Shown: in pieces, positions 60,500-64,000 of the stretch | Layout of the letters: each line of letters starts with the position of its first letter | Position numbering within the stretch: position 1 is the first letter of the stretch | Origin: Sebaldella sp. S0638 | GTDB lineage: Bacteria > Fusobacteriota > Fusobacteriia > Fusobacteriales > Leptotrichiaceae | Reading direction: 5' to 3' | Assembly (NCBI RefSeq): GCF_024158605.1 | Contig: NZ_JAMZGM010000004.1 | Location: forward strand, 1-64,000 | Length of the DNA: 64,000 nucleotides | Notes under the pieces: generated by a model | The model's database searches: none | Told to the model about the DNA's origin: nothing | The model's input: the letters and a program-made list of their open reading frames with translations, nothing else | Position numbers and translations under genes: made by a program

Positions 60500-60672
60500 G
60501 TAATTAATTTTTATAATATTAATGATTGTTTTTAAATTATTTTTATATTTTATTATTTATAAAAATAAAATTTGAAAATTATAATATTTTAGTTTTTAAT
60601 ATTTAAAATTTATTGTTTTTGGAATGTTGGATTTTAAATATTTATATAAAAAAATATTTTTTGGAGGTTGTG

Positions 60673-61572
60673 ATGAAAAAATTACTAGTATTAAGTCTGT
60701 TTTTAGGACTTATGGGTAGTGCGTACGCTTTGGAAAAGGTAAATATAACAACAGGGGTTTACATGGAATCTGAAAACCATAATGCAGAATACAATTCAAG
60801 TGATGTAACTGTGCATGGTGTGAGAGCAAAGCTGGACTTTAAAGATTTTCCTTTATGGACTGAATTTGCATATGAATACAGAAATGCTGACAGTCTTTCA
60901 GGACATCAGGGTGACGAAGACAGATACAAGTTTATGCTTGGGACTAGATTTAATGCAGGAGACTTTAGTTTCAGACCTGAGTATGAATTAAGAATAGGGG
61001 ACAAAAGAGAATCAGCTGAAAAAAATGTCGGTCACAGATTTAAGCCGAATTGGGGATATAAGTTTAACGACCAATGGTCATTATTCAATGGATGGTTATT
61101 TGCTTATGAACCTAATAAAGCATACAGAGGATACTCAGAAACAAAAACATGGGATGACTATTACCATGAGATAGAAACAGGAGTAAAATTTAAGTTTACT
61201 GATGATCAGGCAGTAGCTTTCGGGTTCTATAACGAGTATAAGAAAGAAGAAAAATCGGATATGTATCCAAGAGCTAAAAAATTCGATGAATGGCAGATAA
61301 GACTTGCTTATGAGAAAAAATTCGATAACGGAATTTTAGTATCACCATTCGCAAGAATAACTGTAAGCCAGAAAGAAGAAGCTAAAGAAGGTTATGACAT
61401 CAAATCTAAAGGAAAAGGAAGATATGGTGTTAAAATGGGATATGCTGCCGACAACGGTCTGGGTGTATACGGAGAAACTTATTATCAGAATGAGCCAAGA
61501 GAAGTAGACGGTCATGATCAGTCTGATAAAAACAGATTCTTCTTGAAACTAGGTATTGATTACACTTTTTAA
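60673..61572 (+). CDS. KdgM-like oligogalacturonate porin, copy 1
   Basis: This 299-residue outer-membrane barrel is set to start at ATG 60673 behind TTGGAGGTTGTG. The signal peptide is MKKLLVLSLFLGLMGSAYA. The mature part is acidic/aromatic, with YKFMLGTRFNAGDFSFRPEYE, WDDYYHEIETGVKFKF and the C-terminal barrel signal LKLGIDYTF ending in Phe. KdgM-type porins pass negatively charged pectin oligomers. The adjacent GH28, ABC and UxaB genes support that substrate. The next gene is a close paralogue. Confidence 0.85.
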   Translation: MKKLLVLSLFLGLMGSAYALEKVNITTGVYMESENHNAEYNSSDVTVHGVRAKLDFKDFPLWTEFAYEYRNADSLSGHQGDEDRYKFMLGTRFNAGDFSFRPEYELRIGDKRESAEKNVGHRFKPNWGYKFNDQWSLFNGWLFAYEPNKAYRGYSETKTWDDYYHEIETGVKFKFTDDQAVAFGFYNEYKKEEKSDMYPRAKKFDEWQIRLAYEKKFDNGILVSPFARITVSQKEEAKEGYDIKSKGKGRYGVKMGYAADNGLGVYGETYYQNEPREVDGHDQSDKNRFFLKLGIDYTF

Positions 61573-61765: not shown

Positions 61766-61948
61766 TTAAACATACAAATAATAAATTGATTTTTTTTTTA
61801 TAGGAGATGATAAATTTAATATATAGCTTTTTATTAGTATGGAAATTTATGTTTTTATTGGTTGACTGCTCTAGGGAGGCAGCCTGAATTTATAGTTAGT
61901 TACAATATTTTAATGATATAAATAAATTCAAATTTTTGGAGGTTGTGG

Positions 61949-62851
61949 ATGAAAAAATTAGTAGTTCTAGGTCTGTTTTTAGGCCTGGTAGGAAGCGCGT
62001 ACGCTTTGGAAAAGGTAAATATTACTACGGGTGTCTATATCGAAAGTGAAGATCATAATGCGGAATATACTGGAAGTGATCTGGATGTAAAAGGGATAAA
62101 ACTAAAGGCTGCGATGAAGGATATTCCTTTATGGGCTGAGTTTAACTATGAATATAGAAATGTTAATCTTCCAGGACATACAGGTGATGAGGACAGATAT
62201 AAATTTATGATCGGATATAAATTTGAAGCTGGAAGCTTTGTGTTTAGACCTGAGTATGAATTGAGAGTAAGAGAATTAAGAGAATCACCTGATGAGCAAT
62301 GGGGTAACAGATTCAAACCAAACTGGGATTATAAATTTAATGACCAGTGGACTTTATTCAATAACTGGATGTTTACATATCAGCCTACGAAAGCATACAG
62401 AGGAAATGCCGAGACTAAGAACTGGAATGACTATTATCATGAAATAGAAACTGGAGTAAAGTATAAGTTTGAGGGAAATCAAGCTGTGGTATTCAGTATC
62501 TATAATGAGTATGAAAAAGATGAAAAGTCTCCGGCTCAGGTTCAGGCGTACAGCTATGATGAATGGCAAGTAAGATTAGCATATGAAAAGAAATTCGATA
62601 ATGGTGTATTTGTATCTCCATTTGTGAGAATAGGTGTAGATAAGACTGAAAAAACTACATATGGATATGACAATGACAATAGATTAAGAAACAGATACGG
62701 TGCAAAAATGGGATATGTTGCTAGTAACGGAATAGGCGTGTATGGAGAGGCATATTATCAGGATGAGCAAATGCAGAATCCAAAAAATGGTGAAGATATG
62801 AATGGAAGAGATAAGATATATCTTAAACTAGGGTTAGATTATACATTCTAA
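61949..62851 (+). CDS. KdgM-like oligogalacturonate porin, copy 2
   Basis: This 300-residue paralogue of the preceding porin is set to start at ATG 61949 behind TTGGAGGTTGTGG. The signal peptide is MKKLVVLGLFLGLVGSAYA. Shared blocks are ALEKVNITTGVY, GDEDRYKFM, FRPEYELR, YYHEIETGVK and LAYEKKFDNG, and the C terminus is LKLGLDYTF. It probably has a related but not identical oligomer preference. It has its own promoter and terminator, unlike a simple two-gene operon. Confidence 0.85.
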   Translation: MKKLVVLGLFLGLVGSAYALEKVNITTGVYIESEDHNAEYTGSDLDVKGIKLKAAMKDIPLWAEFNYEYRNVNLPGHTGDEDRYKFMIGYKFEAGSFVFRPEYELRVRELRESPDEQWGNRFKPNWDYKFNDQWTLFNNWMFTYQPTKAYRGNAETKNWNDYYHEIETGVKYKFEGNQAVVFSIYNEYEKDEKSPAQVQAYSYDEWQVRLAYEKKFDNGVFVSPFVRIGVDKTEKTTYGYDNDNRLRNRYGAKMGYVASNGIGVYGEAYYQDEQMQNPKNGEDMNGRDKIYLKLGLDYTF

Positions 62852-63110: not shown

Positions 63111-63431
63111 ATGATTTCTAAAATATTGAGGTGTATCTCACAGGAAGATGTGTTAAGGATTCTTAATCTGATTAATTACAAAAGACCCATAAGTGAAGAT
63201 GAGCTGAATGAAACACTGAATATCCCGAGTTTTGAAATACATAAGCATATAAAAGAACTGGTTAATATGGAAGTCATCATTGACAGAGAAGTAGAAGGAA
63301 AAGAAGTTTATTTTTTTAACAGCGCTTTTGTGAAAAAGTTTAAGTTTTTTGAAATACTGATGAATGAACTGGAAAATGAGAATTTGTACGCTCTCGATCT
63401 TAGAGGTTTCGGAAAAACAGCAGCAGAATAA
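63111..63431 (+). CDS. Small winged-helix (ArsR-like) protein
   Basis: This 106-residue protein follows GGGAGGAACGT. Residues about 10-80 form a winged-helix pattern: DVLRILNLINYKRPISEDELNE, LNIPSFEIHKHIKELVNMEVI, then the wing DREVEGKEVYFFNSAF. It resembles ArsR/MarR-type one-domain regulators, but no metal-binding cysteine set is visible. It precedes the magnesium leader by about 110 bases and has no obvious terminator. A regulatory link to that leader is not shown. Confidence 0.7.
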   Translation: MISKILRCISQEDVLRILNLINYKRPISEDELNETLNIPSFEIHKHIKELVNMEVIIDREVEGKEVYFFNSAFVKKFKFFEILMNELENENLYALDLRGFGKTAAE

Positions 63432-63544
63432 ACTGCATATCACGTTTCATTTTTTAAATATGAGAGATAACCAATAGAATAGAGCATTTGTTCAAAAAAA
63501 ATTGACAATTATGTTTTTTTATGAGTATAATGTTATTGACAATT

Positions 63545-63735
63545 GAATTCGGTAGGTGAGGTTAACTCAAGGGATACGGATTGCTGCCGCGGAAAGATGG
63601 AGACATTTTTACGTTTTGGTTTGAGCAGTCTAGGTCGATTCAAGGCCTAGAATAATGCAATTTCATTGCCCTGAGAAGCTAAAACTCGTACGATACTGTA
63701 ATAGTAACTTCGCCGTCTTTATGTGGCGTTTTTTT
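63545..63735 (+). ncRNA. M-box (ykoK) magnesium riboswitch with terminator
   Basis: Conserved M-box blocks appear in order: TAGGTGAGG (63552-63560), GGGATACG, TTGCTGCC, a distal AATGCA (63654-63659), and GAAGCT-AAAACTCGTACGA. A terminator (CGCCGT / GTGGCG, 63711-63728, then seven T) closes the element. M-box RNAs bind Mg2+ and end transcription when it is plentiful, so genes downstream are on when Mg2+ is scarce. A short ORF and then a truncated gene follow; the latter is expected to be a Mg2+ transporter, but too little is visible to confirm. Confidence 0.85.
63711..63735 (+). terminator. Riboswitch-controlled terminator
   Basis: CGCCGT / GTGGCG with a six-base loop and seven T immediately downstream of the M-box core. 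Confidence 0.8.
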
Positions 63736-63765
63736 ATTTAAAAATAAATTCAGGAGGTGGAAGAA

Positions 63766-63873
63766 ATGCCGGAAGAACCCAGTATGAATATAGAGCACAG
63801 GAGAATTACATATAATATGAATATATACACGGAAAAATGGAAGGATTTCTTCCACCGTATTATAATGAAATAA
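63766..63873 (+). CDS. 35-residue leader peptide after the M-box
   Basis: ATG 63766 follows a strong AGGAGGTGG site (63752-63760). The 35 codons begin MPEEPSMNIEHRR and end WKDFFHRIIMK before TAA at 63871-63873. The peptide has no signal or membrane segment. Its N terminus combines Pro and acidic residues (P-E-E-P), reminiscent of the destabilising MEPDPTP start of the enterobacterial mgtL leader peptide. The position between the riboswitch terminator and the next gene suggests a regulatory ORF. An unknown small protein with its own job is the alternative. Confidence 0.6.
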   Translation: MPEEPSMNIEHRRITYNMNIYTEKWKDFFHRIIMK

Positions 63874-63900
63874 ATTTTGGGAATATTATTGTATGAAATT

Positions 63901-63953
63901 CTCCAAGGCTTTATATTTTAAAAATTTAGAATGAAAATAAATAGCTTTGGAGG
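63901..63953 (+). promoter_or_regulatory. Stem predicted to sequester the ribosome-binding site of the next gene
   Basis: CTCCAAGGCT (63901-63910) can pair with AGCTTTGGAG (63943-63952) with a single G-U pair. It would mask most of the GGAGG at 63949-63953 used by the start codon at 63961. Confidence 0.55.
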
Positions 63954-63960
63954 TAGGACA

Positions 63961-64000
63961 ATGAAAAAAAGAGAAAATGTTCAGTCTTTTTCTGCTGCAG
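63961..64000 (+). CDS. Truncated gene downstream of the M-box (probable Mg2+ transporter)
   Basis: Only 13 codons are visible (MKKRENVQSFSAA) behind GGAGGTAGGACA. The gene runs off the window. Genes in this position after M-box riboswitches usually encode MgtE, CorA or MgtA-type Mg2+ transporters. The short basic N terminus cannot decide among them, so the assignment rests on context alone. Confidence 0.4.
   Translation, partial: MKKRENVQSFSAA

Follow-up and report, generated by a model that had tools for sequence, protein, structure and literature searches.

The window, by which we mean the whole stretch of 64,000 nucleotides analysed here, ends with the leader and the first bases of a Mg2+ transporter gene. 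The elements of this leader are as follows:

63502..63531, + strand: sigma-70 type promoter, TTGACA-18-TATAAT, 12/12 consensus positions (consensus match only)
63541..63707, + strand: M-box (RF00380), a Mg2+ riboswitch aptamer; 83.9 bits, E 8.8e-17, full model 1-169
63711..63735, + strand: intrinsic terminator of the riboswitch; stem 63711-63728 with a 6-bp stem and a 6-nt loop, then T7
63752..63757, + strand: Shine-Dalgarno (SD) sequence AGGAGG of the small ORF, from the sequence
63766..63873, + strand: leader ORF of 35 codons, MPEEPS..., ATG at 63766 and stop at 63871-63873, from the sequence and the ORF translation
63769-63780, + strand: PEEP codons of the leader ORF (codons 2-5)
63961..64000, + strand: 5' end of mgtA, ATG at 63961; the gene continues past the window to contig position 66597

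Membership in RF00380 follows from the covariance-model score, which lies above the gathering score of the family (83.9 vs 44 bits). The setting matches the family as well, with the terminator as expression platform and a Mg2+ transporter gene (mgtA) downstream. This M-box is the only one found in the genome of the window. Shuffles of the terminator region contain 0.2 terminator sites on average. The window stops 40 bases into mgtA, and the continuation of the contig gives a product of 878 amino acids with P-type ATPase domains (Pfam), which matches TIGR01524, a Mg2+ ATPase model, with 1328 bits. Hence, the leader is that of an mgtA gene. Behind the M-box, no second known RNA family reached the Rfam cut-off in the leader; a microRNA model over 63889-63962 stayed below its threshold (28.9 of 90 bits) and was dropped as a second RNA family.

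Just upstream of the M-box promoter, 63111-63431 encodes a 106-aa protein which resembles a winged-helix regulator and is without a Pfam match; a relative of it also precedes the M-box in the leader L017. Further upstream, two similar tandem genes (60613-61572 and 61943-62851) encode signal-peptide proteins of about 300 amino acids, which we take to resemble outer-membrane porins.

A preliminary description of this leader had named an M-box, a terminator, and, directly behind the latter, a 35-codon ORF that looked well translated. The observation is real and confirmed: the Rfam M-box model is matched, the stem at 63711-63728 with its T7 lies ahead of the ORF, and AGGAGG at 63752-63757 in front of the ATG at 63766 makes the ORF a good candidate for translation. 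Its predicted product is MPEEPSMNIEHRRITYNMNIYTEKWKDFFHRIIMK.

Within the genus, the relatives L015, L017, and L007 carry the ORF at the same place, between terminator and mgtA, with the start MPEEPS..IE.R. PEEP is thus kept in 4/4 genomes of the genus examined, the one of the window included. It is retained although ATGGA is not, and in L007 codon 2 has changed synonymously from CCG to CCA, leaving the peptide as it was. Conservation of the peptide in the genus ends at about codon 20, and the stop position shifts; in the alignment, a one-base indel places L001 in a different frame from L015 and L017. A strong SD and a conserved start would also be expected of a small protein that acts by itself, for instance an MgtS-like partner of MgtA. 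This reading is very improbable and was dropped, given that within a single genus the 3' half diverges and switches frame, that ORF length ranges from 14 to 60 codons among the mgtA leaders of Fusobacteriota and of the contig scan described below, and that no family was matched (Pfam for the ORF of the window, NCBIfam for six ORFs tried).

M-boxes were found in 18/98 Fusobacteriota genomes. In all 18 fusobacterial M-box-mgtA leaders (18/18), the terminator is followed by an SD-bearing ORF that precedes mgtA; examples of the ORF starts are MEGDVQSS, MDVGVGDS, MDVENSGS, and MDTGNSNS. Asp or Glu is residue 2 in 14/18, and the remaining four begin with MPEEP. These 18 leaders form four groups of near relatives and are, therefore, not independent. 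Among 12 mgtA copies of Fusobacteriota without an M-box, no leader ORF was found; one of them, L040, has a match to the ORF pattern inside an upstream gene 201 nt away, which was not counted. One genome of the same genus as the window, G003, has two tandem M-boxes 230 nt apart (L008 and L016) before an mgtC-like gene. Behind each M-box comes a stretch resembling a hairpin, with a T run, and a second mgtA lies just behind; ahead of the mgtC-like gene, no leader ORF was seen.

Beyond Fusobacteriota, genome contigs were scanned with the N-terminal part of MgtA, which gave 80 loci, 60 of which were scanned for RNA families. An M-box was present in 17 of these 60, and 16/17 have an SD-bearing ORF before mgtA, the exception being L092. 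The starts of these 16 ORFs include MDAGSNSG, MDEGSSTG, MEPESSRI, and MDSGPSC, and residue 2 is Asp or Glu in 14/16. In the order to which one of these genomes belongs, 144/225 genomes have M-boxes, and a further 103 leaders, nearly all from that order, make up the clostridial set. This set is a non-random choice of the 30 best-scoring M-boxes, 10 lower-scoring ones that suggested mgtA, 60 from further down the list, and 3 added ones, two of which come from genomes outside the order's centre genome. Twelve of the 103 had no main start within 420 nt; among the 91 usable leaders, 61 carry an SD-bearing ORF and 42 have Asp or Glu at residue 2.

Sorted by main gene, the leaders of mgtA have the ORF in 41/41 cases, with an acidic residue 2 or PEEP in 39/41. 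For MgtE-type genes, the values are 45/67 and, for an acidic start, 28/67 (clostridial); for ABC-permease-like genes, 4/11 and 4/11; for Nramp-type genes, 3/4 and 3/4 (MEADPS); two single genes have an ORF that is not acidic. Gene names other than MgtA in this tally are our reading of the sequences and not the result of a family search. Leaders with MEADPS belong to the Nramp-type genes of L152, L153, and L158, and this start is close to the EPDP of MgtL. The 11 ABC-permease-like genes lie directly behind M-boxes (L165, L177, L179, L180, L209, L217, L222, L224, L228, L239, and L249) and are possibly an unrecognised Mg2+-related transporter.

A tblastn check added 12 MgtA-like leaders, namely L092, L189, L237, L238, and eight of a Bacilli sample. 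L092 is outside the shuffle test described below and the main-gene tallies; L189, L237, and L238 are among the 12 without a usable main start, yet MgtA-like, and the mgtA start of L189 was not placed. Six of the 12 have an acidic ORF (L189, L237, L262, L263, L264, and L267). The Bacilli sample consists of 30 loci with high-scoring M-boxes, two of them without a usable main gene; 9/28 leaders have an SD-bearing ORF and 4/28 an acidic residue 2, and for the 8 MgtA-like genes in it the acidic ORF is present in 4/8. Altogether, there are 53 M-box-mgtA leaders, counting L092, with some SD-bearing ORF in 52 and an acidic residue 2 or PEEP in 45. The 8/53 without such a start are L092, which has no ORF, L085, L089, L238, and the Bacilli leaders L265, L270, L271, and L276.

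The preliminary description had compared the acidic and proline-rich start with MgtL, had raised the idea of a layered sensor, and had called the combination unusual for a fusobacterial host. This interpretation was supported in part. The small ORF recurs after M-boxes in related genomes (start kept in 4/4 within the genus, ORF in 18/18 in Fusobacteriota), the MgtL-like start is conserved in the genus and has an acidic or PEEP counterpart in 45/53 M-box-mgtA leaders, and the idea of a putative layered sensor is supported as well. The word "unusual" has to be given up, as the ORF is in every one of the 18 fusobacterial M-box-mgtA leaders and common in the Bacillota sampled.

Where no M-box was found before mgtA in other phyla, 25/62 genes have an SD-bearing ORF within 320 nt and 11/62 an acidic one, M-box status resting on the 60 of 80 fetched loci that were scanned. 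Hence, the acidic ORF can occur without an M-box. Acidic-start SD-bearing ORFs before mgtA without an M-box match were seen in L103, L116, L118, L110, L115, L088, L101, L105, L109, and L126, with starts such as MDIPERF, MDEASSSPLRAS, MDDHPPS, MDSDGSP, and MDPDGR. More phyla may, therefore, have such leader ORFs, part of these loci having been scanned for M-boxes.

In three leaders, L072 (100-760), L089 (1781-2393), and L090 (1788-2396), the M-box and the leader ORF of mgtA are separated by an extra GTG ORF (MYNSHGHSRSK.., MEHRQRVCS.., and MDSCHSTRL.., respectively, read by eye) and by a second hairpin that resembles a terminator and has a run of T. These leaders perhaps stack three control stages. 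In L081, a direct repeat of about 75 nt is present in two copies between the leader ORF stop and mgtA (2205-2350).

The frequency of acidic starts was compared with chance by scoring dinucleotide shuffles of the same leaders for SD-bearing small ORFs. Shuffled fusobacterial leaders have any such ORF in 18% and Asp or Glu at residue 2 in 0.8% (observed: 18/18 and 14/18). Over the three leader sets, the shuffles give 16-30% for any SD-bearing ORF and 0.8-2.2% for an acidic residue 2, compared with 14/18, 14/16, and 42/91 observed. On these counts, a chance ORF was dropped. The same comparison bears on a plain M-box riboswitch in which the ORF and the pairings described below are chance or decay products. 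Short AT-rich leaders do often contain small ORFs (the 16-30% of shuffles), which speaks for it; an acidic or PEEP start in 18/18 fusobacterial and 45/53 leaders overall, against 1-2% in shuffles, makes it the least probable of the readings considered here. Codon 2 is GAA in 23 cases, GAC in 23, GAT in 20, and GAG in 4. As all four Asp and Glu codons are used, the acidic residue is conserved and not one particular codon. Furthermore, the number of acidic residues per seven codons is 1.69 in frame, compared with 0.55 and 0.24 when the other two frames are read (mgtA sets, 29 distinct starts), and 1.49 vs 0.22 and 0.18 in the clostridial set (55 distinct starts). In these sequences, the early acidity goes with the reading frame; in some starts, it is only mild (MDVGVGD, MDAGSNS).

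Pairing predictions for the RNA between the SD of the small ORF and that of mgtA point to three helices built from the following segments:

63756..63767, + strand: helix 1, 5' arm, covering the SD and the small-ORF start; 12 bp with 63845-63856, p 0.002
63845..63856, + strand: helix 1, 3' arm, towards the 3' end of the small ORF; duplex energy test and group alignments
63786..63817, + strand: segment 2 (mid ORF, core 63800-63817), antisequestor 5' arm; pairs with 63887-63918, -31.5 kcal/mol, p 0.002
63887..63918, + strand: segment 2', antisequestor 3' arm, just past the ORF stop; duplex test, alignments, and MFE fold
63901-63909, + strand: anti-SD of mgtA, inside segment 2'; pairs with 63944-63952
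63944..63952, + strand: segment 3, over the mgtA SD (GGAGG, 63949-63953); 9 bp including one G-U, p 0.002

Helix 2 (2:2') and helix 3 (2':3) both use segment 2' and are mutually exclusive. By duplex energy vs dinucleotide shuffles, 2:2' has p <= 0.026 in 18/18 fusobacterial leaders; helix 1 reaches p <= 0.05 in just 12/18, and 2':3 likewise in 12/18. In the group alignments, 83-100% of the 2:2' cells are paired vs 32-66% when the arms are slid by 1-3 columns, and the 2':3 helix in alignment A5 is 88% paired in register vs 30% one base out. The arm sequences of 2:2' vary between groups while complementarity is retained; a GGAGAA core is common to the genus of the window and the group g17 and absent from the other two groups. 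Within groups, few positions show compensatory changes on both sides. In the MFE fold of 63742-63990, 2:2' is formed; this fold is stable relative to its composition (z -2.42), and 3/200 shuffles fold as stably. In the Bacillota mgtA test set, p <= 0.05 was obtained for helix 1 in 10/16, for 2:2' in 8/16, and for 2':3 in 9/16 leaders. According to these predictions, alternative folds overlapping the ORF hide or free the mgtA SD in Fusobacteriota and partly in Bacillota, and the ORF sequence can double as an arm of a switch able to free or hide the mgtA ribosome site.

We then modelled the position of the ribosome by masking its footprint at given codons and computing the openness of the mgtA SD; the model is one of a halted ribosome and leaves out pseudoknots and kinetics. 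In the fusobacterial leaders, openness averages 0.30 for the free RNA; it is higher with the ribosome on codon 1 (0.46) or codon 4 (0.40), drops to 0.17 for codons 8-14, and is 0.37 with the ribosome on the stop. The difference between codon 2 and codon 12 averages +0.28, is >0.05 in 14/18 leaders and <-0.05 in 0/18, and is small in L011, L012, L013, and L014. Shuffling segment 2, 12 times for each leader, brings this difference to 0.01 (sd 0.05), with values >0.05 in 6%. In Bacillota, where a fallback was used for the SD position, the results are mixed (7/16 up, 3/16 down), and the output there may, therefore, be a different one.

For the leader of the window, the free RNA has an openness of 0.49; a ribosome at codon 2 gives 0.54, and one at codon 12 gives 0.02. 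In the model, full reading shuts a half-open site and the idle leader is not closed. The ribosome-free RNA is likewise already open in L015 (0.82) and L014 (0.64), whereas the free RNA of the g17 leaders is closed (0.20-0.23) and opens to 0.43-0.70 with the ribosome at codon 2. Ribosome-free behaviour thus seems to differ in the model, the leader of the window being about as open as after abort and those of g17 closed. The rule common to both would, therefore, be that full reading closes mgtA and early failure keeps or makes it open.

One reading of these results is that the ORF merely protects the mRNA after riboswitch read-through, by masking a Rho site or by translation coupling, with an incidental acidic start. 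Rho is involved in mycobacterial M-box leaders (PMC12810186) and in mgtL (PMC11282234), as the available parts of both papers describe. Such shielding is quite unlikely, as it leaves unexplained the in-frame acidity, the antisequestor pairing in 18/18 leaders, and the loss of the position effect when segment 2 is shuffled. Another reading keeps the same 2:2' / 2':3 switch and lets the ORF report general translation capacity (starvation or the state of the ribosome) through stalling or the initiation rate, in the manner of an attenuator. An early-halted ribosome would yield the modelled exposure directly, the footprint model being one of a halted ribosome. In MgtQ, moreover, any slowed translation of the uORF is expected to open the mgtB site (available part of PMC8092293), and no single amino acid is common to all ORF starts. 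The property they do share is early acidity, which fits destabilization better than tRNA sensing, and the ORFs accompany M-boxes and Mg2+ transporters; we consider attenuator-like control rather unlikely on this account. An amino-acid attenuator peptide in the strict sense was rejected on inspection, as the ORFs share no codon run; Ser is frequent, and the ORF of the window has no run of it.

Systems of the MgtL/MgtQ type act by ribosome destabilization in low Mg2+, which is counteracted by L31 and EttA. This type is characterised by a small ORF with an SD in a Mg2+ transporter leader, by conserved acidic (and Pro) first codons, and by alternative RNA folds overlapping the ORF. The first is present here, the second likewise (PEEP in 4/4 of the genus; 45/53 leaders), and the third is a prediction. 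The best reading is, in our judgment, a two-stage Mg2+ control of mgtA, in which a translation-abort switch like that of MgtL and MgtQ stands behind the riboswitch; we regard it as probable, with modest confidence. The parts, their conservation, the predicted pairing, and the modelled effect of the ribosome position are shown for these leaders. In the first stage, as established for the family, high Mg2+ would fold the M-box, and the terminator would form. Read-through transcripts would carry the leader ORF with its acidic/Pro start into the second stage. By analogy with MgtL and MgtQ, the ORF would be translated and ribosomes poorly supplied with Mg2+ would fall off in its first codons. Abort would leave segment 2 free to pair with 2', the anti-SD would be kept off the mgtA SD, and mgtA would be translated. 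A ribosome that reads on would cover segment 2, 2' would pair with the mgtA SD, and mgtA would be closed. The location of PEEP at codons 2-5, with segment 2 downstream of the presumed abort zone, fits the MgtL/MgtQ logic. Translation, drop-off, its Mg2+ dependence, and the direction of the response in the cell are inferences. Several findings run counter to two-stage control: mean openness with the ribosome at the stop is higher than in the free RNA (0.37 vs 0.30), the ribosome-free RNA is open in some leaders, and the ribosome-free MFE fold of the window already holds 2:2'. The small codon effect in L011, L012, L013, and L014, the weaker pairing tests and mixed model results in Bacillota, the 12/18 for helix 1 and for 2':3, the scarcity of compensatory changes, the mildly acidic starts, the insufficiency of acidic pairs alone (PMC11282234), and the 8/53 leaders lacking an acidic or PEEP start weigh in the same direction.

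In a wider and more tentative view, which we put forward as possible, ribosome-based Mg2+ sensing by an acidic abort ORF would not be an enterobacterial speciality. It would be a common second stage behind the M-boxes of mgtA, and of part of the mgtE and Nramp-type genes, in Fusobacteriota and Bacillota. The transporter mRNA would be proof-read twice: the aptamer would check for free Mg2+, and the ribosome would check whether Mg2+ is adequate. The fusobacterial ORF would serve as the switch arm, and some groups (g17) might form an AND gate that opens when the aptamer is empty and ribosomes start but fail. The M-box is a textbook riboswitch and is usually treated as the entire switch. If most M-box-mgtA transcripts hold a second sensor read by translation, reporters that stop at the terminator do not capture all of the control, and the MgtL/MgtQ logic would be a widespread mechanism, repeatedly kept or re-invented. 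For the question whether cells sense free Mg2+ itself or ribosome function, such a leader offers two separately breakable parts in one molecule.

In the literature covered, in which subscription journals are thinly represented, the combination of an M-box with a small ORF was found only in mycobacteria, and there without this mechanism. The available part of a paper on Nramp-type M-boxes does not contain the term "uORF" (PMC4072509), and in those of two ncRNA surveys there was no match to "mgtA" and no M-box leader ORF was shown (PMC11109978, PMC8632094). With the M-box or ykoK leader (RF00380), the leader described here shares the aptamer, the intrinsic terminator, and the Mg2+ transporter behind; it differs from it in the conserved acidic ORF and the predicted second RNA switch between terminator and mgtA.

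The mycobacterial M-box leaders are alike in that an M-box and ribosome-bound small ORFs precede Mg2+-related genes, according to the available parts of the two papers (PMC12810186, PMC4974804). In the leader of the pe20 operon, the M-box has a translational platform, in which an anti-SD hides the SD of the ORF, with termination by Rho; the uORF is conserved there and appears to yield a product (PMC12810186). In M. abscessus, mgtE has a ribosome-protected uORF with an M-box upstream (PMC4974804). These same parts name no acidic translation-abort role for the mycobacterial uORFs. In contrast to the pe20 leader, the ORF described here lies behind an intrinsic terminator and is conserved at its start only.

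In enterobacterial MgtL, the EPDP sequence makes ribosomes leave in low Mg2+, which switches mgtA on, and acidic pairs alone are insufficient, as stated in the available part of PMC11282234. The leader described here is alike in its small ORF before mgtA, in acidic and Pro residues at codons 2-5 (PEEP), and in the predicted overlapping alternative folds (PMC11282234). The likeness we claim is functional only. The output of MgtL is Rho-dependent termination, whereas here the modelled folds point to accessibility of the ribosome site of mgtA as the most likely output, and an M-box is not mentioned for mgtL in the part of that paper available (PMC11282234). MgtQ, the uORF between mgtC and mgtB of Salmonella, has acidic codons 2 and 5, and abort at Asp2/Glu5 frees the mgtB ribosome site through alternative stems, as the available part of PMC8092293 describes. 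It has 8 codons and lies inside an operon, and the present ORF is placed behind a riboswitch in a 5' leader; the two also differ in pairing order, the start here pairing with the ORF end and the mid-ORF with the segment past the stop (PMC8092293). The two are alike in their acidic first codons, in alternative stems made of four parts, and in the freeing of the transporter's ribosome site by abort, which is predicted here (PMC8092293).
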